From assembly GCF_013343215.1 (NCBI RefSeq), contig NZ_CP039143.1, forward strand, positions 620,001 through 684,000: a DNA stretch of 64,000 nucleotides, in the 5' to 3' direction. How positions within the stretch are numbered: the first letter of the stretch is position 1; the number at the start of each line of letters is the position of its first letter. This document shows positions 818-51,422 of the stretch, in pieces. The DNA comes from Acinetobacter sp. 10FS3-1. Its GTDB lineage: Bacteria > Pseudomonadota > Gammaproteobacteria > Pseudomonadales > Moraxellaceae. Under the pieces are notes generated by a model. The model made no database searches, had not been told where the DNA came from, and was given only the letters and a program-made list of their open reading frames with translations. The position numbers and the translations under genes are program-made.

Positions 818-1450
818 TTATTGAGATGCAGCCGTTGCTACAGGTGCTTTGGGTTGAAAGCGCACCATACACTGACCATTAATGGTTTGGTCAGCGATTT
901 TAACCTGTACCGCCTTGCCTGGGGCTTGGCCCTGACAGGCCCGAGCAAAAGCAGTCTGTAAAGCCTGGCGTTCTGCCAGATATTGATCGTACTGTTTGAC
1001 CAGTTCGGCACGTTTTGTATCGGTTAATACGTCAGCGCCGTTCATACCGCCACGGAAATTCCCCTGCATCGGGCGGTGTTCACCGCGCATACCACGGAAT
1101 TCACCACGTTGTTTCATCTCTTTGCGGTCAGCCTTAAAAAAGATATTACACTGGCCTTCAATAGTTTTATCGCCGGCTTTCACTTGTACTGTGCTGCCAA
1201 TGGTCTTACCCTCACAAGCCTGCTGCATCTGTTTGCCCAGCTGCATCCGTTCGGTGCGCATGGCCTGGTAGTGTTCGCGCTGCTCAGGAGAAAGCTGATG
1301 GGCTTTTTTAGCTGCATGATGCTCATGATGTTTCATCATGTGTGGATGTTCTTTGCTGTCTGGCACCTGGCTGGTCGATTGACAGGCGCTGAGTAAGCTC
1401 ATAGACACAATGCTGGCACCGATTAAACCTACTTTTGTCATTGCTTTCAT
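818..1450 (-). CDS. Histidine-rich lipoprotein with two copies of a Cys-x21-Cys module
   Basis: I do not recognise a named family. Translation from the ATG at 1450 gives 210 residues with a lipoprotein signal, a hydrophobic stretch ending LLSAC with the lipidated Cys at 23. A longer reading from 1522 would put 24 unlikely residues before this signal. Residues 33-51 are rich in His and Met (eight His). A helical segment, LSPEQREHYQAMR, follows and is reminiscent of Spy/CpxP-like periplasmic proteins. Two similar modules are visible at 78-101 and 171-194: each starts AC.G, contains VQVK and ends GQC, with the Cys pair 22 residues apart. The gene is divergent from the BaeS/BaeR-type system at 1588, as stress-induced periplasmic proteins often are from their regulators. 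A metal-binding or envelope-stress role is inference. Confidence 0.75.
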   Translation of the reverse strand: MKAMTKVGLIGASIVSMSLLSACQSTSQVPDSKEHPHMMKHHEHHAAKKAHQLSPEQREHYQAMRTERMQLGKQMQQACEGKTIGSTVQVKAGDKTIEGQCNIFFKADRKEMKQRGEFRGMRGEHRPMQGNFRGGMNGADVLTDTKRAELVKQYDQYLAERQALQTAFARACQGQAPGKAVQVKIADQTINGQCMVRFQPKAPVATAASQ

Positions 1451-1587
1451 CTCGCTACCCCATTTATTAGAAGCTGATTTTTTAGAATGTTTAAAGATTA
1501 AATAATAAAGATGAAGAAACAATGGAGGGTTTTTTAATCCCGTGTTCGTTACAATGATGAATACAGAAGAAAAATCGAGTTCTTGCT
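1451..1587. promoter_or_regulatory. Divergent intergenic region between the lipoprotein gene and baeS
   Basis: 137 bases between two divergent starts must contain both promoters. I could not pick out a clear BaeR-type or Cpx-type box by eye, so any shared regulation is inferred only from the arrangement. Confidence 0.4.
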
Positions 1588-3246
1588 TTGAAAATTCGTC
1601 GTATTCCGATTGCCTTACGCCTGTTTTTAACTGTGCTGTTGACGACGCTGCTCATCACGACGGTGAGTCTGGGCGTATTGCATCTGAATATGCAACGGAA
1701 CTTCACCCGCTATGTGGCGGATGTGGAAATGCAGAAACTGGATCATGTGATTGAAAACCTTGCAGACGTTTATATGGTTTATCAGGACTGGGGCAATGCC
1801 ATTCAGGCACAGATTCTGCAAATTGAAGGGGAAGCAGCGCCAGATGATTATGACCGCTTATCACGCTGGTGGTTACGTCGCCAATATGATATTGCCTTGC
1901 AGCAGCGTTATTTTCAGGAACAGACTCTGGCCAGTGTTACGCCGTCCAGTATGGTTGAGCCCAGCTTGGCACCGCGACCCGTCAATCAGGAAGAATTGCG
2001 CATACTGGCCTCAAATATGCCTTCTCAATTTCAGCCCTTTGAAGGTTTGAGATTTCCACTTAGCTCGAATCAAGGCGCGTTCCGAACCGATCATAAAAAT
2101 AAGGGGGAGCAATCGGCAGGGCGGCCAGCAGGCAAGAAACAGTTCATTCAAATGCCGGACCGTCTGGGACTCAGTTCGCGTCTGTCTCTTTATGATGCAA
2201 AGCGCCGTTTTGTGGTGGGAGAAGCTTCAGATGAGCAGATTTCCTATCGTCCGATTATGGTAAATAAGCAGATTGTAGGTTATTTGGGCTTAAAGCCGGT
2301 TTTAGATCAGGATGATGCTTTAAGTATTAATTTCTTTAGTAATCAGAAGCGTTACCTATTTTTGGTTTATGGTTTAAGTATTCTTGCCAGTCTGATTGCA
2401 GCGTTGTTGTTGGCGACTTATTTTAAAAAACCGATCCAGCGTTTACTTAATGGTACCCGTGAACTGACCCGAGGTAATTATCAGCATCAGGTCAAAGTAA
2501 AACGTAATGATGAACTCGGTGATTTATCCAGTGAATTGAACCAGTTAGCAGTGATTCTGGATCAGCATGAAACATCGCGCCGTCAATGGGTGGCAGATAC
2601 CTCGCATGAGCTGAAAACACCGCTTGCGGTCTTGCAGGCTCAGATTGAAGCCATGCAGGATGGAATCCGTAAACCAACACCGGAACATTTTGCCTCGATG
2701 CTAGGTCAGGTGACGAGCCTGAAAAAGCTGACTCAAGATCTGGCTGCTCTGGCACAGGCTGATTCACAGCAGTTGCAATTTTATTGTGCCACGGTCAATC
2801 CTTGGGAAGTGGTACAGCAGGAACTGATGAGCTTCCAGCCAAAATTTGAACAGGCGAAGCTGAGTGTGACTGTCGAAGGCGAGGGGGCAGAACTGGAACT
2901 GGATTTGGATCGCTTTAAACAGATTGTGGGCAATCTGCTCAGTAACAGTATTCGCTATACTGAAGCCGGTGGGCAGGTGCATATCCATACGGAGCATGAT
3001 GACAGCTCGTGGACTTTATATATTGATGACAGTCCATTTGGTTTGACAGATGAGCAACTGGCCCGGATTGGAGAGCGTTTCTATCGGGTTGATGATTCGC
3101 GTACCCGGGCCACTGGCGGAACAGGGCTCGGTCTGGCGCTATCATGTAAAATTACTCAAGCAATGGGCGGCAGCCTTAGCTTTGCACATTCACCGCTGGG
3201 TGGTTTGCGCTGCAAGCTCAGCTTTCCTAAACAAATGAAATCTTAA
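1588..3246 (+). CDS. baeS: Sensor histidine kinase, BaeS type
   Basis: Inner-membrane sensor kinase of 552 residues. Order of parts: membrane segment about 9-31, a long periplasmic sensor region to about 250, a second membrane segment about 254-275, a HAMP linker about 276-330, the dimerisation/phosphoacceptor domain with His340 in SHELKTP, and the ATP-binding domain with N-box NLLSNS and G2 box GGTGLGL. The G1 box reads DSPFG rather than DxGxG; as I recall, E. coli BaeS has a similar DSAPG, which supports the subfamily. Translation appears to start at TTG 1588, because an in-frame stop lies at 1558-1560 and no ATG precedes the first membrane segment. The regulator gene follows after 13 bases. 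In A. baumannii BaeSR controls efflux pumps such as AdeABC; the symbol is by resemblance. Confidence 0.75.
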   Translation: MKIRRIPIALRLFLTVLLTTLLITTVSLGVLHLNMQRNFTRYVADVEMQKLDHVIENLADVYMVYQDWGNAIQAQILQIEGEAAPDDYDRLSRWWLRRQYDIALQQRYFQEQTLASVTPSSMVEPSLAPRPVNQEELRILASNMPSQFQPFEGLRFPLSSNQGAFRTDHKNKGEQSAGRPAGKKQFIQMPDRLGLSSRLSLYDAKRRFVVGEASDEQISYRPIMVNKQIVGYLGLKPVLDQDDALSINFFSNQKRYLFLVYGLSILASLIAALLLATYFKKPIQRLLNGTRELTRGNYQHQVKVKRNDELGDLSSELNQLAVILDQHETSRRQWVADTSHELKTPLAVLQAQIEAMQDGIRKPTPEHFASMLGQVTSLKKLTQDLAALAQADSQQLQFYCATVNPWEVVQQELMSFQPKFEQAKLSVTVEGEGAELELDLDRFKQIVGNLLSNSIRYTEAGGQVHIHTEHDDSSWTLYIDDSPFGLTDEQLARIGERFYRVDDSRTRATGGTGLGLALSCKITQAMGGSLSFAHSPLGGLRCKLSFPKQMKS

Positions 3247-3259
3247 AGGAAATAAATTC

Positions 3260-3946
3260 ATGAAACATATCATGCTGGTTGAAGATGAAATCGAACTTGC
3301 ACAGCTGGTGCGAGACTATCTGGAAGCTGCTGGTTTTGAGGTCAGTATGTTTCATGATGGGCAGGAAGCATATAACAGTTTTATCCAGCGTAAACCCCAT
3401 CTGATGATTCTGGATCTGATGGTGCCGCGTATGGATGGCCTGACGATTTGTCGTAAGGTGCGTGAGCAATCGGATCTGCCTATTATTATGGTGACCGCGC
3501 GGACTGAAGAAATTGACCGGGTACTGGGCCTGAATATGGGCGCAGATGACTATATCTGTAAACCGTTTAGCCCGAAAGAACTCGTGGCGCGTGTACAGGC
3601 TGTACTTCGCCGTCTGGACCGTAAGGCGGAGCCGGAAAGTAATGACCTGTTCCGTATGGATAAGTCACAGCAGCGTATCTGGTATCAGCAAAAAGCCTTG
3701 AATCTGACCCCAACCGAGTTTCGTTTACTGGAACTGTTCCTGGAACATGTCGGTCAGGTCTATTCACGCGCACAGTTGCTGGATCATATTAATCCGGACA
3801 GTTTTGATGTCGCAGACCGGGTGATTGACAGTCATATCAAAAACCTGCGCCGTAAAATTTCGGATGCTGCGGAAACCGGTAACCGTCATGAGTGGATTCA
3901 GGCGGTGTACGGGGTGGGTTACCGTTTTGAATATCCTGAGGACTAA
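3260..3946 (+). CDS. baeR: OmpR-family response regulator, BaeR type
   Basis: Cytoplasmic DNA-binding response regulator of 228 residues. The receiver domain (about 1-118) has the acidic pair in VEDE near residue 9, the phosphorylated Asp52 in LDLMVPRMDG, Thr in VTART and Lys in CKPFSP. The C-terminal winged helix (about 130-226) has the typical LTPTEFRLLELF and VYGVGYRFE segments. The ribosome site AAGGAAATAAATTC precedes the ATG at 3260. It forms a two-gene operon with the kinase, separated by only 13 bases, and is closed by a terminator at 3967. It should be phosphorylated by the kinase and activate envelope-stress or efflux genes, possibly the divergent lipoprotein at 818-1450; the last point is inference. 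Confidence 0.85.
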   Translation: MKHIMLVEDEIELAQLVRDYLEAAGFEVSMFHDGQEAYNSFIQRKPHLMILDLMVPRMDGLTICRKVREQSDLPIIMVTARTEEIDRVLGLNMGADDYICKPFSPKELVARVQAVLRRLDRKAEPESNDLFRMDKSQQRIWYQQKALNLTPTEFRLLELFLEHVGQVYSRAQLLDHINPDSFDVADRVIDSHIKNLRRKISDAAETGNRHEWIQAVYGVGYRFEYPED

Positions 3947-3966
3947 TTTTCAAGCCTGTTAAAGAA

Positions 3967-43275: not shown

Positions 43276-44301
43276 ATGAAAAAATTCACTAAATTAGCTT
43301 TAGCGACTTCAATTGCTTTCAGTGCAAATGCGATGGCGATGCAAGCCATGGATGATGCATCTCTTAGCGCCACAACGGGTCAAGATGGTATCAATATCGG
43401 GATCGGTATTTCAAAAATTGAAATTGATAAACTTTTTATTCATGACAATGATGGTTTAGATACTAGCCCTGCGGGTGGAACAGCTACAGCGGGTGCCATT
43501 GTAATTAAAGGTGATGGCAAGGCCGGCAGCGTAAATGAAAATCATGGTCTCGTCATTGGTGCAAACTATGACTCCCTGTTGGCGTCTAAGAACTTGGCTG
43601 ATTTGCAGATTGACTCGGATGCGGGTAATACTGCCAATGGTGGGGCATTCTTAAATATTGCTGCGCAAGTTTCAGGTTTAAAGATTAATATTGGTGAAAT
43701 TGGTGTAGCTGCATCGAATGCTATGCCAGATGCAAGTGCGACTTCTATCCGTCGTGGTGCTTCTACAAGCAATTATAATGCGATTTTAAGTGGCCTGGAA
43801 ATCGTAACCGGTACAATGGATGCGAATATTCAGGTCGGTGCTGCTCCTCAAGGTGCAATGATCAAGTTAAATACAACAATGGTGGGCGGTCTGGAAATCA
43901 AAAACCTAGGTATCCTTGATAACTCGACAAAAGGTAAATCTATTGGCGAGGTTACAGTTGGCGGTAATACTGTTTCTGTAGCTCCTCAAGAAGCGGGTGA
44001 AATCTTTATCGAGAGTATCAAAGTGGCTGATGCAAACTCTAAAGATTTAACCATTAGTCAAAATATCTCCGTATTTAATGATGCTTATGTTGGCCCTTCT
44101 ACCACGGTCGGTAAGGCTGCACATCTCCGTATCGTAAGTAATGATACGGGGGCAAAAGACCAATATATTAAAGGCATCCATTTAGGTAGCCGCACCGCAG
44201 GTTCAATTGGTGATATGGAAGTCCAAGGTCTTCAAACTTATTATTCGCCAACTGCTGGCACATATACAAAAGGCGCAGTTATTACGATTTCTGGTCGTTA
44301 A
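43276..44301 (+). CDS. filA: Exported FilA-like protein (first gene of the fil operon)
   Basis: A 341-residue secreted protein of a family annotated in A. baumannii as putative pilus assembly protein FilA; the function is not established. The signal peptide ends at about residue 21 (FSANAMA). The mature protein opens with DDASLSATTGQDGI (26-39), a motif I associate with the DUF6160 family. The rest is Gly-, Ala-, Asn- and Ile-rich with alternating hydrophobic residues and no Cys, so it is probably all-beta. GGGAG lies eight bases before the ATG. A strong terminator follows at 44311, before filB, so filA is probably made in excess over the rest of the operon, as expected for a structural or exported component. 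Confidence 0.78.
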   Translation: MKKFTKLALATSIAFSANAMAMQAMDDASLSATTGQDGINIGIGISKIEIDKLFIHDNDGLDTSPAGGTATAGAIVIKGDGKAGSVNENHGLVIGANYDSLLASKNLADLQIDSDAGNTANGGAFLNIAAQVSGLKINIGEIGVAASNAMPDASATSIRRGASTSNYNAILSGLEIVTGTMDANIQVGAAPQGAMIKLNTTMVGGLEIKNLGILDNSTKGKSIGEVTVGGNTVSVAPQEAGEIFIESIKVADANSKDLTISQNISVFNDAYVGPSTTVGKAAHLRIVSNDTGAKDQYIKGIHLGSRTAGSIGDMEVQGLQTYYSPTAGTYTKGAVITISGR

Positions 44302-44310
44302 TATTGCATA

Positions 44311-44340
44311 AAAAAGCGCGTGTTTACACGCGCTTTTTTT
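44311..44340 (+). terminator. Terminator between filA and filB
   Basis: AAAAAGCGCGTGT and ACACGCGCTTTTT form a near-perfect stem followed by more T. It should let only part of the transcription continue into filB. Confidence 0.9.
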
Positions 44341-44485
44341 ACGCATAAATATTTATCTGAAAAATAAAAAAATGCTGTTTTTTTTTGAAAAAAAAGGTAT
44401 CTTGCTAGTTACAAGGAAGTAGAGTGAATACTCTATAAAAATAAAAGTAAGCATATTCTGCTGATGATAAGAAAAGTTAATAAAT

Positions 44486-45319
44486 ATGTTAGAGATTGCG
44501 TTGGGCTCGGCATTGATATATTACGCTGCCAAAGAAGCTCTGGATATTAAAAAACAGCCGCAGGGAGCTGTTCACTATACTGAAGTTCTTGATTCACGAA
44601 ATGATTCTTTTGTGCGTATGCACCGTGAACCGGTAGAAGTCAAACCTGCTATTTTCGAGCAGTTCCAGGGAATTGTACGCCAAGCTTATGATTATAGCTG
44701 CGGTTCCGCTGCACTCACCACCTTGCTGAATGGTTATGTAGGCACACAATTAGATGAAGAGCAGGTGATGAATGGTCTGATCAAATTTGGTGAAACAGAC
44801 AGAATCATTGAGCGCCGTAGCTTTTCTCTTCTTGATATGAAGCGTTTTGTGGCTGCTTTAGGTTTGGAAAGCGGGGGGTATCGTGGTGAGTTCGACGATT
44901 TGGTCAAACAGGGGCAGCCTGCAATTGTGCCTATTTCTTATGCAGGATTTAAGCACTTCGTTGTTTATAAAGCTTATAAAGATGGACGGGTTTATGTAGC
45001 TGATCCGGCATTGGGGAATATCAGTTTTGATGTACAGCGTTTTAAAGATATTTGGGAAAATAACACTCTCTATTTAATTAATGTGCCAGAACAATATCGA
45101 AAAAATTTCTTGACCTTAAAAGACACCGATATGCGGCATGTAGAGGATGCAACGATTAACCGTTATGCCTTGGTTGACCTGCAGTATCCACAATTTTATA
45201 TGGATAAAATTGCTGATAAAGCTTCAACAATCCGTATGGACCGTAATCGCAATACAGAATCAGAGCAATTTGGGGAATATCAATATAATTTCCTAAGGCT
45301 GTATTACAAAAACAAATAA
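44486..45319 (+). CDS. filB: C39-family peptidase, FapD/FilB-like
   Basis: A 277-residue exported cysteine-protease-like protein. A hydrophobic N-terminus (residues 3-15) suggests a membrane anchor or signal. The C39 peptidase domain (about 55-195) has the catalytic Cys72 in YDYSCGSAAL, His157 in FKHFVVYK and Asp173 in VADPALGN, so the triad is complete. This stand-alone C39 arrangement, with RQAYDYSCG, FSLLDMKRFV and VADPALGN, closely recalls FapD of the Pseudomonas Fap amyloid system as I remember it, rather than the N-terminal domain of peptide-exporting ABC transporters. No ABC transporter is nearby. The gene follows filA and precedes a FapF-like barrel gene by about 35 bases. Its likely job is processing or chaperoning of FilA, which is inference. 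Confidence 0.8.
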   Translation: MLEIALGSALIYYAAKEALDIKKQPQGAVHYTEVLDSRNDSFVRMHREPVEVKPAIFEQFQGIVRQAYDYSCGSAALTTLLNGYVGTQLDEEQVMNGLIKFGETDRIIERRSFSLLDMKRFVAALGLESGGYRGEFDDLVKQGQPAIVPISYAGFKHFVVYKAYKDGRVYVADPALGNISFDVQRFKDIWENNTLYLINVPEQYRKNFLTLKDTDMRHVEDATINRYALVDLQYPQFYMDKIADKASTIRMDRNRNTESEQFGEYQYNFLRLYYKNK

Positions 45320-45354
45320 AACCAGAACCTGGCTATAAAAATTAAAATGGTGAA

Positions 45355-46572
45355 ATGGATATGAATGGTAAATGGATGAACAAGACGTTTTTGGTACTCA
45401 GTATTCAAATGGTAATGGGAGTTGCATTTGCTGCTGAAGAACCTGCATTGGGTGAATATGAAAGTGTGGATGAAGAGGTCATTGAAACTGCTACAGCAGC
45501 TCAAACCAGTCAAGTTGAATCATCTTCTGTTGAAGATGTAAAGCTGGGTGCAGATGAAATAGTCCAGGAAGAAATAGCTACTGACACTACAGCCTCTGTA
45601 GAAACTCAAACGCCAGCCCAACCTCAGGCAACACAAAGCACCAATGCCTCTCAAGCCTTACAGCAACAAGAGGGCGATACTACTCAGGCTGGAAATTTAG
45701 AAGAAGTATTTACTTCAAATGAGCGTCAATATTCACTGATTAAAAAAGGTGAGATTTCCTCTTATTATGATATTGATTATACCTATTATCGAGATACTCA
45801 GCTTGATATGGAAATGGCGCAAGGCCAACTTTACCAGCTACGTGTCCAGGAAAATGCAACGCATAGTCTGACCAATACATTCACTTTTCAATATGGTTTA
45901 AAAGATAATTTAACTTTAACAGCATCCTTACCTTTGGTGGCGAAAAGTGATCTGTTAAAAGACACCTCTACGGCGGGACTTGGAGATATTAATTTAGGCG
46001 CACGATGGGAACCCTTCCCGCTAAAAGCTGGCCGTTTACCACTCATTTTATTTGGCAATATCTCGACCAAAACTGGTGAAAGTCCTTATGAAATTAATGC
46101 CGCAACGGATCTGGCAGCAGGTAAGGGTTATTATTCTGTTGGTATAGGTGCAAGTACGCGCAAGTATATTGATCCGGTGGTTCTCTTTGCTTCCGTCTCG
46201 GCAAACTATGGATTCAAAGAATCCGGTTTAAACCAAATTCGCGGCCGACGCATCATTGAAGAGTTTGATCCAGGCATTAGCGGTGGTTTTGCTTTCGGTT
46301 TTGCCTATTCATTTAATTATGATGTTTCGATGACCATGTCTTATCAGCAAAGCTTTAACACGGGCGCAGAATTTAGCTATAACACGGGCGAGAGCTATTC
46401 GGCTGCAGATCAGACCAGTTCAACTTTTGCAATTTCTCTAGGAGTGCGGGTGTCTCCAGAAACGATTGTGAATGGAACCTTGGGCTTGGGTTTGACAGAA
46501 GATGCACCAGATGTTTCGTTGGGGCTTTCCTTCCCATTGGATATTTTAGGTTTCGGCAAGAAAATCAGTTAA
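45355..46572 (+). CDS. filC: Outer-membrane beta-barrel protein with disordered N-terminus, FilC-like
   Basis: A 405-residue outer-membrane protein. The signal peptide ends near VAFA (about 26). Residues 27-120 are low-complexity, rich in Glu, Thr, Gln and Ala. The rest (about 130-405) is a beta-barrel of the phenol-meta-degradation transporter type: FQYGLKDNLTLTASLP, GLGDINLGARW, ALGVRVSPET-like (ISLGVRVSPET) and an ending of LGLSFPLDILGFG. A long polar N-terminus in front of such a barrel is also the layout of FapF, the export pore of the Fap amyloid system. ATG codons at 45355, 45361 and 45376 are all possible starts; the last gives the cleanest signal peptide. Confidence 0.75.
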   Translation: MDMNGKWMNKTFLVLSIQMVMGVAFAAEEPALGEYESVDEEVIETATAAQTSQVESSSVEDVKLGADEIVQEEIATDTTASVETQTPAQPQATQSTNASQALQQQEGDTTQAGNLEEVFTSNERQYSLIKKGEISSYYDIDYTYYRDTQLDMEMAQGQLYQLRVQENATHSLTNTFTFQYGLKDNLTLTASLPLVAKSDLLKDTSTAGLGDINLGARWEPFPLKAGRLPLILFGNISTKTGESPYEINAATDLAAGKGYYSVGIGASTRKYIDPVVLFASVSANYGFKESGLNQIRGRRIIEEFDPGISGGFAFGFAYSFNYDVSMTMSYQQSFNTGAEFSYNTGESYSAADQTSSTFAISLGVRVSPETIVNGTLGLGLTEDAPDVSLGLSFPLDILGFGKKIS

Positions 46573-46584
46573 GAGGGCTGTCGT

Positions 46585-48249
46585 ATGAAGAATATTCGAC
46601 TCAGCCCGTTATTAACAGGAATTATTCTTGCGGGCTGTTCAAGTTATACCTTTGCACAGTTGGGAACCAACCTTTCGGTTGATTTGCGTGCATTGTCCAT
46701 GGGGAATGCGGTGACTGCAGACCCTCCAGGGGTGAATGCCATTCACTTTAACCCGGCAGGACTTACCAAGATTGATGGTCTGCAAACCGAGCAACAAATT
46801 ATTATTGCAGATTTCAATATTCAGCGTGAGTTTAGTGTTCCAGCAGGCTATAACGTCTTCGGTTATTCTGATGATCCTCTAGTCTGTCACGACGGACCAG
46901 AAGTTTCATCTGACCTGTGTACCGACTTCAAGGGACCAGTTAACGGCGATGTAGAATATGTCAGCCTGTATGTGCCTATTCTGAAAAAAATGGTGGATTT
47001 GGGAGAAGGTTTGCCGATTGCGGCACCGACGATGGGAGTCGCTTATAATCCACCTGGATCGAAAGCAACCTATGCTACAGCTGTATATGCACCTTTAATT
47101 GCAGGTTTTGGCCATGAAGATGGTAATCCCGCCAACTTTATGGGACAGCAGGTCGCTTTGGAAAGGATCACTTATCTGTCCCCATCCATTGGTTATGAGA
47201 TTAATGACCAGCTTTCGATTGGGGCATCTGTGGGAATGTCTTATCAGGCCGTTGCCATGAAAACAGATTTACGTTTTCCGAATGAGCTGATCGGCATGTT
47301 ACGTATGATTGATGAAGTCGTATGTACACCATTTAAAGAAAACTCCGACATCATTACCGATATTTTATTACTCGGAATCTGTAATGCTGAAGAGGGGGTG
47401 AATCCATTTGGTAAATTTGGCCAAATGGAGCTGGCACTGGAGCAGAACCTCAGTCCAAGTTATAACTTGGGTATCTTATGGGAGCCAACGGAAGACTTTA
47501 GTTTTGGTATGGTTTATCAAAGCGCGGCAAAAATGCGCTTAAAGGGCAAATATCATATTGATAATGCTAAAGCACCTCAGGAATTGATTCGGGGATTAAT
47601 GACTTCACCAACCGGTCAGATCCTGGCTGCGATTCTGGGTTTTCCCAATTATATTCCTAGCAGTGAATCAGGGCTGGTGGCCATGGATTTTGAATATCCA
47701 GCCCACTTTCAGGCCGGTATTAAATATAAACTCATGCCGGATTTACAAGTTAATCTTGATATTGGCTGGACTGACTATAAAGCATGGGAGCAGTTTAAAT
47801 TTGAATTTGATCGTAGTATTTCTGCTTTAAAAATTGCCAAACTTTTATCCCCGCATGTCACGGATTCTTCGCTTGCCTTGCCTTTAGGATTTGAATCGCC
47901 GTGGAACTTCGGCATAGGAGTAGAATATTCAGCAACCGACCGTTTAAAACTACGTGCGGGCTATGAGCCAAGAACCAGTGCAATTCCTAAGGATAAACGA
48001 AATACGATGGTTCCTATTAATGGGGCACAGTTATTTGGCCTAGGTCTGGGTTACCGTTTCGATGCTGATACCGATCTGGACTTATCTATTGGCTTTCTGC
48101 GCAGTAAAGATAACATTCCTGCCAACACCAGTAGCCTGGCGAATCAGACAGGTGTCAATAACCTGTTGCTCAACCCTTATGCAGGCTTGAATGTCAAAAC
48201 AGATACCAAGATTACTATTTTAGGTTTGAACTATCGTACACGCTGGTAA
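46585..48249 (+). CDS. filD: OmpP1/FadL-family outer-membrane protein, FilD-like
   Basis: A 554-residue FadL-like barrel, a family that takes up hydrophobic compounds such as long-chain fatty acids. The mature N-terminus has the FadL-type plug signature SVDLRALSMGNAVTADPPG followed by AIHFNPAGLTKIDG. The end is a typical FadL strand, KITILGLNYRTRW, with a terminal aromatic. The signal peptide contains LAGC (15-18), which looks like a lipobox, before the more usual cleavage after YTFA. Whether it is lipidated is open. The gene begins 12 bases after filC, so it belongs to the same operon. The four Cys residues at about 92-100, 247 and 265 are unusual for this family. Confidence 0.78.
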   Translation: MKNIRLSPLLTGIILAGCSSYTFAQLGTNLSVDLRALSMGNAVTADPPGVNAIHFNPAGLTKIDGLQTEQQIIIADFNIQREFSVPAGYNVFGYSDDPLVCHDGPEVSSDLCTDFKGPVNGDVEYVSLYVPILKKMVDLGEGLPIAAPTMGVAYNPPGSKATYATAVYAPLIAGFGHEDGNPANFMGQQVALERITYLSPSIGYEINDQLSIGASVGMSYQAVAMKTDLRFPNELIGMLRMIDEVVCTPFKENSDIITDILLLGICNAEEGVNPFGKFGQMELALEQNLSPSYNLGILWEPTEDFSFGMVYQSAAKMRLKGKYHIDNAKAPQELIRGLMTSPTGQILAAILGFPNYIPSSESGLVAMDFEYPAHFQAGIKYKLMPDLQVNLDIGWTDYKAWEQFKFEFDRSISALKIAKLLSPHVTDSSLALPLGFESPWNFGIGVEYSATDRLKLRAGYEPRTSAIPKDKRNTMVPINGAQLFGLGLGYRFDADTDLDLSIGFLRSKDNIPANTSSLANQTGVNNLLLNPYAGLNVKTDTKITILGLNYRTRW

Positions 48250-48256
48250 GAAAAAT

Positions 48257-49384
48257 ATGATGAAAGCAGGGAAGACAGGGTTAAGGCTATTACTCGCCAT
48301 GAGTTTGGGATCATGGTCATGGTATAGCTATGCTAAAGAGTTTATTAGCATCATTGGTCCGGATGGCCGACCTTTGGTAGTGCCGCGTACTGCGAATGAG
48401 CAGAAAACTAAGACAAAAAAAGTTCAAACTGCTCCAGTATCTCACTCTTCTCCCAAAGTCCTTTCCCAACAGGCACGGCAGAAGTCACAGAGTGCATCAG
48501 AAAATAATGTGACCAAGGCTGAGCCAGAAATGAGGTTGGTACAACCAGTACAACTACGAGCTAAAGTCGGGTATCCAGAGGTAGAGGCAGCTACACAGGT
48601 AACAAGTTTTTCAGCTTCCAATGTATCTCAATCCAAACCTCAGCAAGCTGTCACACTTCCTCATCCCACACCAGCTCCAAAGAGTGGATTTAGTCACATA
48701 GATGGCGTGGATTATGTAGAGAGTGAATATCTGGAAAGCAAAGAATTTAATTTAGAAGGCAAAAAGCGTTTTTACAGTATGCCGGAAGGAGTGGTGGATA
48801 AGAATATAGGATCAACCCGAATACAAACGGTTGAGCGTGAGAAAGGCGTTGGGCAGTCTATTCTAAAATCTTTATTTGCTGGTCCGAGTGTAGATACGGC
48901 TCCTATTACACTTGCGCAAAGCTATTATCGTATTTCACAGTCAGAAACTGTTGAGAGTCTGGGACAGCAATGTTTTAAGCATAAAAAAGTTCAGCAGGCC
49001 AAACACATGATTGTAGGTAAACGTATCAATTTATGGCCACGCGCACCTTTAAAGGCGGATGAGTTTGATTTTGAAATAGTGAGGCTTGATCCGGGTATTA
49101 AAAATGTACAGATTCAGTCTTATGCAGCGCGCCAGCATAATCCTGCTTATTACTGGCCATTTGCAGTATTTTTAGATCAGAAAGCTTGTGTACTCGAAGG
49201 AGCAGGGGGCTTTAAAAGTCAGCAACAAGCAGCGAATATTATACGACATGAGTATATTGAAGGGATTATCCAGGTCCCAGAACAGGCTCGTTATCTGTTA
49301 TTAACGCCATTAGCTTCAGCGATTGATATTGAAGACAAGCAGCTCACTAATTACGGACAATTAAAACTGGTCGCAATTCGTTAA
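48257..49384 (+). CDS. filE: Exported protein FilE-like
   Basis: A 375-residue exported protein with no fold I recognise. The signal peptide ends near WYSYA (about 25). Residues 40-150 are disordered (Gln, Ser, Lys, Pro-rich). The C-terminal half (about 180-375) looks folded and starts KKRFYSMPEGVVDKNIGSTR. It contains two Cys (CFKHKK and ACVLEG) that could form a disulfide, and ends with TNYGQLKLVAIR. It starts 7 bases after filD. FilE is conserved in the fil cluster of Acinetobacter, and its place between two surface proteins suggests a periplasmic or outer-membrane accessory. Confidence 0.7.
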   Translation: MMKAGKTGLRLLLAMSLGSWSWYSYAKEFISIIGPDGRPLVVPRTANEQKTKTKKVQTAPVSHSSPKVLSQQARQKSQSASENNVTKAEPEMRLVQPVQLRAKVGYPEVEAATQVTSFSASNVSQSKPQQAVTLPHPTPAPKSGFSHIDGVDYVESEYLESKEFNLEGKKRFYSMPEGVVDKNIGSTRIQTVEREKGVGQSILKSLFAGPSVDTAPITLAQSYYRISQSETVESLGQQCFKHKKVQQAKHMIVGKRINLWPRAPLKADEFDFEIVRLDPGIKNVQIQSYAARQHNPAYYWPFAVFLDQKACVLEGAGGFKSQQQAANIIRHEYIEGIIQVPEQARYLLLTPLASAIDIEDKQLTNYGQLKLVAIR

Positions 49385-49404
49385 GGATAATTTGAGTAAA
49401 AAAA

Positions 49405-51348
49405 ATGAAAAAGAATTTATTATATCCATTTGCTTTAACTACCCTGGTGATGGCTTTAACCGCCTGCGGAGGAGAAAGCGCCAACGTCATACCAGAACCC
49501 GAGGAAGCGACAACCAACGGCTCTTGTAATCCTACAGCAAGTAACTGTCTGGAATGGGGGCTTGAATATCCATTAGATGGTCTGAATTTTAATTGTAGCG
49601 GAGACAAAGAAAATAAGTTTATTACTTTGTTTAATGTACGCGATGGAGTGGCTTCAGGAAGCTGCCGGAAAACAGATCATGTGGAATTTTATATTGAGAG
49701 TCATGGTGGACGTAAGATTGAGCTTGGATCAATTAAACTGGGTGAGTTTCTGAGCTTGAGCACGACCAGCCAGCTTCCACGCTTGGGTGTTCTGGATATT
49801 GCCAAAGGTATTACTGGCCGATCTGTATATGAGTTGAAACCTTCGGATGCCACGGTTCAGGTAGCGATGAAACTGGTGAAAATCTGGCAGACCATGGCAC
49901 TAGATCAAGGGAATATTTATAATCCGACAGATGTACAGCCGCTCTATATCGAAGATAGTCGTAAAGCCCTGGATCAGCTCAGCAAAAATATTAAATTGAC
50001 GGATACTGACTTTGTAGAAATCCTGAAACCGGCACTGGATATTAGCAAGATTAGTGATGAGCAGGCATTTAAGGTGGTGGAAAAGTTAGCCAATATTGCC
50101 AATGCTGCGGTCTATCAGCCAGAATTTTCTTTATTCTCCACATCCGGGATTATCGGCAATCAGTTCTCGGGTTCAGATGGCCTGACGGGATGTAATAAAC
50201 CAAGTTGTGATATTAAAGATAAAACAAATAAATACTTGTTTGGTCATTTCATGTTGATTACCGATCGTCAAGGCTATACTTTCGGCAGTGGACTGCAATG
50301 GCGCGATAGCCAGTTAAAGCTTGCTGATAGTAATCTGAGTTCACTCGGAGGAATCAATGCCGAGTTAATCCGTAAAGTCAAACCCCAGCAGATGACCGCA
50401 AATCCTCAGACCTCATGGATTCACCCTGCAACTAAGACTATTTCAAATTATAAAATGAATATTGGGCATAAAGAGGCAAATAATGAGAGCCAACTTGAGG
50501 TTTATCAGGGGCGTTTGCTCAGTGATTATGTGATGGCTGGAAAAGAAAATTTCTATAAACTGATCACTGGTAAAACCAGTTTAGATGACAATGACCGTGC
50601 AAGCTTAGGCTTATGGCGTATGAATGCGGACAGTGAAGATTATAGGGGAAGCGTAGATCTTTATAAGATTTATCCAATCAGTTATCTGGACCGGCAGGTT
50701 TTTAAAACAGTTGAAAATGTTCGCCCAGGAGAGAGCTATATCTTTCCAATGTACGGTAATCTGGAGTTTAAATTTACAGAGAGCAGTGTTGATCCGGTGA
50801 CAGTCGGAATTATGATTGACAGTAATGGCAATGTGCGTACCAACCGTCAGTCAGCCACCCAACTTTCGACTGATCCAGTGAATGGTTGTATAGGGGACAT
50901 CTTGGCAAATAATCTTTTGGATGAAAGAGGCGTGCAACAATACCGACTCGGGACTTTGGGGCGTGCTTTTACCCAGGATAAAACGGTATCCATGCGTTTG
51001 ATCTTCGCAGATCCGGTGTTTGCTTCATTGAATGGAGCCTTGATTGGACTGAACTCGAGTATTCAAGGTTCAAGTAATTCAGCTGATCTGATTGTGGTCG
51101 GGGGAGCGCTACTGAATTTAAACCATGTGCTGAGTACACCAGTTGGACAAACAGGACGGGTCAGTTTCGCTAACTCTGCTGGAGAAAATGTTGGTTGGGC
51201 CAATACCTATGCCAGCTTCCAGAAAATTTATAATAACAATAATACGGATGAGAGCCCTGCTGATATCGAGGTGGCGAAATATAGTGGTGGAGAAGTCTCT
51301 TTTAGACTGGCTGAGTGTTATCAGGTTAAGGCGAAGACCAATGGATAA
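49405..51348 (+). CDS. filF: Large lipoprotein FilF-like
   Basis: A 647-residue lipoprotein and the last gene of the fil operon. The signal peptide ends in a good lipobox, LTAC, with Cys21 followed by GGES, so it should be anchored in the outer membrane. Several further Cys pairs (SCNPTASNC, CNKPSC and others) suggest disulfides. I see no enzymatic motif. The middle and C-terminal parts alternate short hydrophobic stretches with polar turns, as in beta-rich surface proteins. It begins 20 bases after filE and is followed by a clear terminator. A role as a surface-displayed or assembly lipoprotein is inference. Confidence 0.72.
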   Translation: MKKNLLYPFALTTLVMALTACGGESANVIPEPEEATTNGSCNPTASNCLEWGLEYPLDGLNFNCSGDKENKFITLFNVRDGVASGSCRKTDHVEFYIESHGGRKIELGSIKLGEFLSLSTTSQLPRLGVLDIAKGITGRSVYELKPSDATVQVAMKLVKIWQTMALDQGNIYNPTDVQPLYIEDSRKALDQLSKNIKLTDTDFVEILKPALDISKISDEQAFKVVEKLANIANAAVYQPEFSLFSTSGIIGNQFSGSDGLTGCNKPSCDIKDKTNKYLFGHFMLITDRQGYTFGSGLQWRDSQLKLADSNLSSLGGINAELIRKVKPQQMTANPQTSWIHPATKTISNYKMNIGHKEANNESQLEVYQGRLLSDYVMAGKENFYKLITGKTSLDDNDRASLGLWRMNADSEDYRGSVDLYKIYPISYLDRQVFKTVENVRPGESYIFPMYGNLEFKFTESSVDPVTVGIMIDSNGNVRTNRQSATQLSTDPVNGCIGDILANNLLDERGVQQYRLGTLGRAFTQDKTVSMRLIFADPVFASLNGALIGLNSSIQGSSNSADLIVVGGALLNLNHVLSTPVGQTGRVSFANSAGENVGWANTYASFQKIYNNNNTDESPADIEVAKYSGGEVSFRLAECYQVKAKTNG

Positions 51349-51384
51349 TAAAAGTTATAGATAAGTAACCTGTCTTAAAGCAGG

Positions 51385-51422
51385 ATGCCAGTCAGTGAAA
51401 AAAAATTGACTGGCATTTTTTG
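51385..51422 (+). terminator. Terminator of the fil operon
   Basis: ATGCCAGTCA pairs with TGACTGGCAT around a 12-base A-rich loop, followed by TTTTTG. Confidence 0.9.

Follow-up and report, generated by a model that had tools for sequence, protein, structure and literature searches.

The fil operon of Acinetobacter as a probable Fap-related secretion module with a predicted second, C39-type leader on FilA

The stretch of DNA analyzed here (the window) comprises 64,000 nucleotides of Acinetobacter sp. 10FS3-1 (assembly GCF_013343215.1, contig NZ_CP039143.1, positions 620,001 to 684,000) and contains the fil operon, filA to filF, at 43276-51348, with six intact open reading frames (ORFs) that all lie on the + strand. 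Each of the NCBIfam models FilA to FilF matches its window protein above the cut-off. The Pfam scan of the six proteins finds a C39 peptidase (FilB), DUF6160 (FilA), FadL/TodX (FilD) and FilE_C (FilE), and leaves FilC and FilF without any match. The features are listed with protein lengths in amino acids (aa) and E-values of the family matches.

43276-44301, + strand: filA, the predicted cargo, 341 aa (NF050077 2.1e-90; PF19657 1.1e-10)
43276..43338, + strand: Sec signal peptide of FilA, residues 1-21, ending in ANAMA, read from the sequence
43339..43383, + strand: predicted C39-type leader of FilA, MQAMDDASLSATTGQ, residues 22-36, from the conservation, enrichment and clade tests
44310-44340, + strand: intrinsic terminator in the filA-filB gap, with a similar one in 70 of 78 loci
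44486-45319, + strand: filB, C39 peptidase, probably membrane-anchored and periplasmic, 277 aa (C39_FapD 1.2e-31; FilB 9.2e-158)
45355-46572, + strand: filC, outer-membrane barrel of FapF type with a long polar N-terminus, 405 aa (FapF family 3.4e-16)
46585-48249, + strand: filD, barrel of FadL/TodX type, 554 aa (PF03349 2.7e-61)
48257-49384, + strand: filE, exported protein with FilE_C domain, 375 aa (PF22881 1.6e-65)
49405-51348, + strand: filF, lipoprotein with lipobox LTACGG (read from the sequence), 647 aa (NF050081 1.5e-232)
51382..51419, + strand: terminator-like stem 3' of filF, 15 pairs with a T-rich tail

A first-pass annotation of the window had noticed the strong terminator after filA, the full Cys72/His157/Asp173 triad of FilB, the FadL-type barrel, the large lipoprotein and the lack of chaperone, usher or type IV pilus motifs, and these observations hold for the features above and the scans below. 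It had also called FilA small, which does not suit a protein of this length.

FilB is, by sequence, homologous to FapD and yet no FapD equivalog, because its score against the FapD family (C39_FapD, 109.8 bits) lies below the equivalog cut-off of 330 and because it falls into a separate clade. The families of C39 domains from ATP-binding cassette (ABC) transporters reach 34.7 bits at best, in agreement with the earlier remark that FilB recalls FapD. In the PDB, FilB matches only transporter C39 domains, since no FapD chain was matched there. The catalytic residues C72, H157 and D173 and the oxyanion glutamine Q66 are present (PF03412 2.4e-15) and are invariant across six FilB-type proteins, and S112 and L116 align with A55 and I59 of PCAT1 (numbering counted from C21), two residues of the hydrophobic knot that binds the leader (PMC6959990; papers are cited here and below from excerpts of their text). 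The protein consists of the C39 domain only, without the transmembrane and nucleotide-binding domains of ABC transporters. Its N-terminal hydrophobic segment, which has no clear cleavage site as read from the sequence, suggests that FilB is probably membrane-anchored and periplasmic.

The match of the barrel to FapF, which the first-pass annotation had also proposed, is reproduced by sequence and by profile. The single FilC sequence compared with the PDB up to E 1 finds four distinct sequences, all of them FapF (best 1.7e-10), and a profile of 28 FilC sequences recovers these four again (best 1.1e-13). When 34 FilC are aligned with 14 FapF sequences in hhalign, the result is 100% probability and E 1.2e-40 (as a single comparison) over 290 columns, corresponding to FilC residues 103-396. 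With 59 bits against the FapF family model, whose cut-off is 700, FilC is clearly homologous to FapF at the level of sequence while remaining below the equivalog cut-off.

Directly after its Sec signal peptide, which was read by eye and not with a dedicated predictor and whose layout is shared by the FilA proteins of other loci, FilA presents a segment in the register of a double-glycine leader. Its M25 (-12) and L30 (-7) supply the hydrophobic positions, T33 (-4) the position that is hydrophobic or Thr, and G35 (-2) the glycine, with Q36 at -1. In structures of C39 peptidases with leaders, residues -4, -7 and -12 sit in a hydrophobic groove, the cut sites are Gly-Gly, Gly-Ala or Gly-Ser, and a V-4T substrate, which has the threonine that FilA has at -4, was still fully processed (PMC6363468, PMC6959990). 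Comparison of 27 FilA proteins (that of the window and 26 others, chosen among the best 120 of 1594 matches) shows L30, T34, G35 and Q36 to be invariant, and M25 and T33 to be conserved in at least 90%. The PF19657 match spans residues 1-80, signal peptide and leader included. When the window FilA is aligned with the FilA of L224, a locus of family f2, the alignment is significant only over residues 15-41 (59% identity).

Of 498 relatives in named genomes (Acinetobacter, Alkanindiges and other Moraxellaceae), 80 loci were retained to follow the conservation of the operon; their FilB is 58-92% identical to that of the window. FilB occurs in all 80, FilC and FilD in 79 each, FilA and FilE in 78 each and FilF in 77. 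Five loci are incomplete, four of which (L105, L142, L159, L175) break off at the locus end; in the fifth, L173, FilA was not detectable. The filA-filB gap (up to 1.4 kb in the loci examined) holds a perfect stem with a T-run in 70 of 78 loci, and the eight loci without it are those with the lowest FilB identities (58-61%) among loci with a FilA match. Such a terminator fits an expression of FilA that is strong relative to the machinery. Four loci (L174, L175, L178, L179) carry four FilA-like genes upstream of filB, the last two of which match FilA down to 26-45 bits and retain the leader.

The occurrence of leaders near stand-alone FapD-like peptidases was counted in two samples of genomes, with a core motif taken from the literature register and scored after the signal peptide on ORFs of at least 85 codons. 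The first sample, 274 genomes of the class, gave 40 genomes with a FapD-family match at 1e-10, 36 of them with a frame of stand-alone size; outside the window genome there are 48 stand-alone matches, and the regions around 40 of these (35 genomes) were analyzed. Of the 165 same-strand ORFs no farther than 3 kb from the peptidase, 37 carry the core motif, versus 6 of 106 ORFs more than 4 kb away; shuffles of the same stretches yield a mean of 6.8 and a maximum of 13 in 300, and 27 of the 40 loci contain a match. The second sample comprised 398 genomes of the phylum, 39 of which had a FapD-family match at 1e-14, and provided 42 new stand-alone matches, 40 as centres and two inside the same regions; the control set was ORFs more than 3 kb away or on the opposite strand. 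Here the motif is found in 38 of 173 ORFs near the peptidase versus 5 of 150 elsewhere (p 2.5e-7), with shuffles at a mean of 7.5 and a maximum of 14, and in 29 of 40 loci. The p-values are uncorrected for kinship: although their genomes are different ones, the second-sample loci contain near-copies and come partly from the same families, and the control set differs slightly. A laxer motif (Gly or Ala at -2) is less specific, with 53 of 165 near versus 14 of 106 far in the first sample and 15.9 in shuffles. A strict motif gives 38/165 versus 1/106 in that sample and 16/173 versus 1/150 in the second (15 of 40 loci); it counts only in the second, since it was written after the first-sample loci had been seen. 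Searched with the FilC profile, 27 of the 40 loci of the first sample show a barrel of FapF type in the initial round; iteration, whose scores are inflated for the sequences included, raises the number to 33.

The structure of Fap operons suggests where FapD itself may act. In ten of them (L064-L073) the gene directly 3' of fapD encodes an exported protein with a leader, for instance LTDGELSGMRGR or LSESRLSNIRGK, and the exported gene 3' of the peptidase in L074 and L075 has one likewise; no leader gene follows the short peptidase frame of L100, a locus of the Fap clade. All eight loci with a FapD above the curated cut-off (L191-L198) show a leader as in LKDQELATLRGRY. The FapE model matches the gene that follows fapD in 8 of 8 cases, two above its cut-off (346 and 345.5 bits) and six below (67-120 bits). 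According to the excerpted text of Rouse et al., no peptides were obtained from about the first 70 residues of FapE, and FapE was a suspected target of FapD, the target being left open and no canonical C39 sequence being present (PMC5557850). A 2018 review, in the part seen, still calls the substrate of FapD undetermined (PMC6173800), and among the titles and abstract openings listed in searches for FapE and FapD cleavage since 2017 and for Fil together with Fap, none names a site or a link between the two systems. The leader motif may, by its sequence, also mark the FapD cut site.

Leader class follows peptidase ancestry. A tree of 40 peptidases was built from FilB and 39 of the 40 first-sample loci, L084 being excluded because its frame is not readable through. 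On this tree the leader classes, assigned by hand from the neighbors (for L085, L089 and L090 from genome-wide DUF6160), change 6 times, the minimum possible being 5, versus 23.7 when shuffled. The TEG class is not one clade, and FilB stands outside Fap and RGGF with support 95/92. A larger tree, of 80 peptidases, groups 13 rows in the FilB clade (support 100/100); these correspond exactly to the sampled genomes, 13 in number, in which DUF6160 and a FapD-family match occur together. The remaining five peptidases from these genomes are second copies of Fap or RGGF type. By these trees FilB is a sister clade of FapD. DUF6160 itself occurs in 6 of the 274 class genomes and 11 of the 398 phylum genomes, 15 different genomes in all. 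Within the genus, 97 of 119 genomes have the peptidase and all 97 have at least two DUF6160 matches, and 19 of the 22 genomes without the peptidase have no DUF6160 match (shared ancestry is uncorrected in both counts, and the matches are not individually placed). As FilA is itself one of the matches, the informative part is the loss of the unlinked DUF6160 proteins.

Unlinked leader proteins are present in the window genome as well. PF19657 has four matches there at E 0.01, one being FilA and the other three being clustered at 2.29 Mb (G000:C1:2290947-2296686; L006 4947-10686, minus strand). The cluster encodes four consecutive exported proteins of 456, 723, 239 and 475 aa, each with a leader of FilA type (LNDEQLSEVEGQ, LIKDQDLGSVTGQ, LNNEEMVAISGK and LSDDTMSDTTGE). 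A leader profile that includes these four and FilA finds no protein of this genome under E 0.4 other than these five. Comparable groups of leader proteins, as judged by the leader, were seen in L246 and L247, which belong to two other families. Genomes G138 and G251 have 15 and 17 DUF6160 matches, respectively, over many contigs and a single peptidase of the FilB clade each. Because 17 matches accompany one peptidase in one genome, one peptidase may serve many unlinked substrates.

FilB-clade peptidases also occur in L222-L228 (five loci of family f2 and two of f172, same order), and the five operons listed (L222-L225 and L228) have FilB, FilC, FilD and a further exported gene in order. A leader protein, for instance MDDSSLSSVTGQ, lies upstream of filB in all five f2 loci; in L222 and L223 none was seen adjoining filB, and DUF6160 genes lie elsewhere in the genome. 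The L224 proteins score below the cut-offs of the Fil models that they match (FilB 6.8e-84, FilC 5.2e-97, FilD 6.8e-163), and a MalT/LuxR-type regulator of 907 aa is encoded upstream of its operon (1244-3964). The gene in FilE position of L224 (8155-9303) is MalM-like; FilE as a certain homologue of MalM was rejected, as the window FilE compares with this protein at a BLAST E-value of only 0.028.

Several further leader proteins were observed in the sampled loci. In L076-L083 the gene 3' of the peptidase encodes an exported protein in which a classical double-glycine leader, LRGGF or MRGGF, comes after the Sec signal peptide; the three of these proteins that were tested could be placed in neither a Pfam nor an NCBIfam family. 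Beside a stand-alone C39 peptidase, L096 (5199-6986) and L101 (6231-7478) encode small exported proteins, two to four in tandem, whose leaders are LSDxxMDxVTAG-like. For seven proteins of the RGGF and TAG classes the Pfam scan found no match and the NCBIfam scan nothing meaningful. Small exported proteins (about 104-113 aa) with leader-like motifs lie upstream of the peptidase in the Fap-type loci L065 (5421-5735), L100 (6983-7324) and L070 (7030-7368), the coordinates in L065 and L100 being counted on the peptidase strand (reverse complement). The sole far match of the strict motif is an exported ORF of L084 (1185-2087, minus strand) with the leader MTSAEMDSVQGK, on the strand opposite to the peptidase. 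In the FapB proteins of L064, L066, L068, L069 and L074 the initial repeat (for example LNGNALSGVTGA) fits the leader core, which could be a chance product of the amyloid repeat or could represent a second FapD site.

These observations are best accommodated if Fil is a Fap-related outer-membrane secretion module in which FilB reads a second leader on FilA, a reading that we hold to be probable. It is carried by the homology of FilB with FapD and of FilC with FapF, by the conservation of the leader and by its association with FilB-clade peptidases. Sec would take FilA into the periplasm, where, after signal peptidase, it would retain a 15-residue leader of C39 type. An inner-membrane anchor would hold FilB so that its catalytic domain lies in the periplasm; FilB would bind the hydrophobic face of this leader (M25, L30 and T33) and cut after TGQ, at Q36; FilC would carry FilA to the surface, to be displayed or assembled there. 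FilB may also serve the four unlinked leader proteins of the same genome, and FilD to FilF would have accessory roles. Among these steps cleavage after TGQ is quite probable, export through FilC is rather likely, and display as or on fibres is evenly balanced. The first-pass idea of a distant cousin of Fap thus stands for the machinery and finds no support for the amyloid; that FilB processes FilA gains indirect support and is made specific by the leader motif. Fil is, as judged from sequence, a sister system of Fap and not Fap. We lean slightly toward a general route in Proteobacteria: Sec export, a periplasmic C39 peptidase that reads and cuts a second leader, then a barrel of FapF type. It would include about five leader classes (RG[RK][YF], RGGF, TGQ, TAG and TEG), two of them Fap and Fil, with one peptidase for many unlinked substrates and with FapE as the FapD substrate, cut at RG[RK].

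A number of observations weigh against this reading. Classical C39 sites have Gly, Ala or Ser at -1, where FilA has Gln and FapE has Lys or Arg, and some proteins in FapE position have Q at -4 (L068, L199, L205). No core motif was found near the peptidase in 13 of 40 loci of the first sample and 11 of 40 of the second, the signal peptides in these tests were called by a purpose-written script, and some core-motif matches near fapD are FapB repeats that may not be leaders. Two of the 15 DUF6160 genomes are without FilB: G565, whose match does not reach the family cut-off, and G493, whose match carries a leader and whose assembly is a draft of 90% completeness. Finally, DUF6160 proteins whose leaders are intact persist in 3 of the 22 genomes of the genus that lack filB, through recent loss of filB or because the leader is independent of FilB.

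The latter three genomes, together with the non-classical -1 residue, would be expected if TGQ were a docking signal for FilC or another periplasmic factor and FilB cut something else, such as the linker of FilC; cleavage of the FapF linker was considered by the Fap authors (PMC5557850). This appears unlikely to us, as the register of the FilA leader is the one recognized by C39 peptidases, leader class follows peptidase clade, and the site of the RGGF class is a classical double glycine. A little less likely still is that Fil is a true functional amyloid with FilA as its subunit, like FapC in Fap. The peptidase of FapD type and the barrel of FapF type would suit it, as would an AlphaFold2 model of FilA that is beta-rich at low confidence (mean predicted local distance difference test score 54.9) and the increase of FilC and FilF in biofilm of strain SDF (PMC8792954) and of FilF in pellicle (PMC3203104). 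FilA itself matches no PDB sequence up to E 1. No internal repeat of FilA stands out from shuffles (116 of 200 reach its score), whereas each of three FapC controls exceeds all 200, and its content of asparagine plus glutamine is 10% versus 15 and 24% in two FapC. FilA as a repeat amyloid like FapC was rejected on the repeat result; a scan for the Fap-repeat pattern is a weak test, because repeats were detected in only one of two real FapC. FapB and FapC have no match among the six Fil proteins at E 1, although both models find real FapC and FapB, and FapE has none although its model finds 8 of 8 tested FapE genes. One protein in FapA position gave no match in the libraries scanned, in which no FapA model was seen. 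In strain Tol 5, FilA was identified by Edman degradation of a band from sodium dodecyl sulfate polyacrylamide gel electrophoresis, where it ran as a monomer (PMC3498257; the excerpt does not include the sample treatment), and it was found by proteomics (PMC11784438).

Fil might instead serve mainly the uptake of hydrophobic compounds, with FilD as a transporter of FadL type, FilC as a relative of COG4313-like barrels and FilA as a surface accessory. FilD is indeed of FadL/TodX type, Fil fimbriae were deduced on Tol 5 grown on triacylglycerol (PMC3498257), a connection of FapF with COG4313 uptake channels is drawn in a review (PMC6173800), and the FilC of L224 weakly matches Phenol_MetA_deg. 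We consider this quite improbable, because the PDB matches of FilC are FapF only and a barrel of FapF type accompanies most first-sample peptidases (33 of 40), while a FadL-like neighbor was noticed, by eye, only in loci of Fil type. A chaperone-usher or type IV pilus, to which the name refers and as which excerpts of published papers describe fil (type III or Fil pilus), is hardly credible: usher, pilus chaperone, pilin and type IV pilus domains are all absent from the Pfam and NCBIfam matches of the six proteins, and the pilus was rejected on that account.

A Fap-related secretion module would replace the label "putative pilus" for an operon that figures in studies of biofilm factors and vaccine antigens, and the motif names candidate cut sites, RG[RK] in FapE and TGQ in FilA. 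If true, it would extend leaders of double-glycine type from the cytoplasm to the periplasm. Fil shares with the Fap system of Pseudomonas (FapA-F) a stand-alone C39 peptidase, a barrel of FapF type and an exported protein with a C39-type leader encoded beside the peptidase, FapE in the one and FilA in the other. It differs in its leader, TGQ in place of RG[RK][YF], in the separate clade and probable membrane anchor of FilB, and in FilD, FilE and FilF, which are without a known Fap counterpart. With the PCAT/AMS transporters of double-glycine leaders, Fil has in common the C39 family, the catalytic triad and the leader register -12/-7/-4/-2, but FilB lacks the ABC and transmembrane transporter domains, the -1 residue of Fil is Q and processing is placed, as we infer, in the periplasm after Sec. 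FilD is like the FadL/TodX transporters but lies within an operon of secretion type. FilA, in turn, is a member of DUF6160 (PF19657), for which Pfam states no function and for which the reading of its leader by FilB suggests one: here we read the domain as the signature of a FilB substrate.

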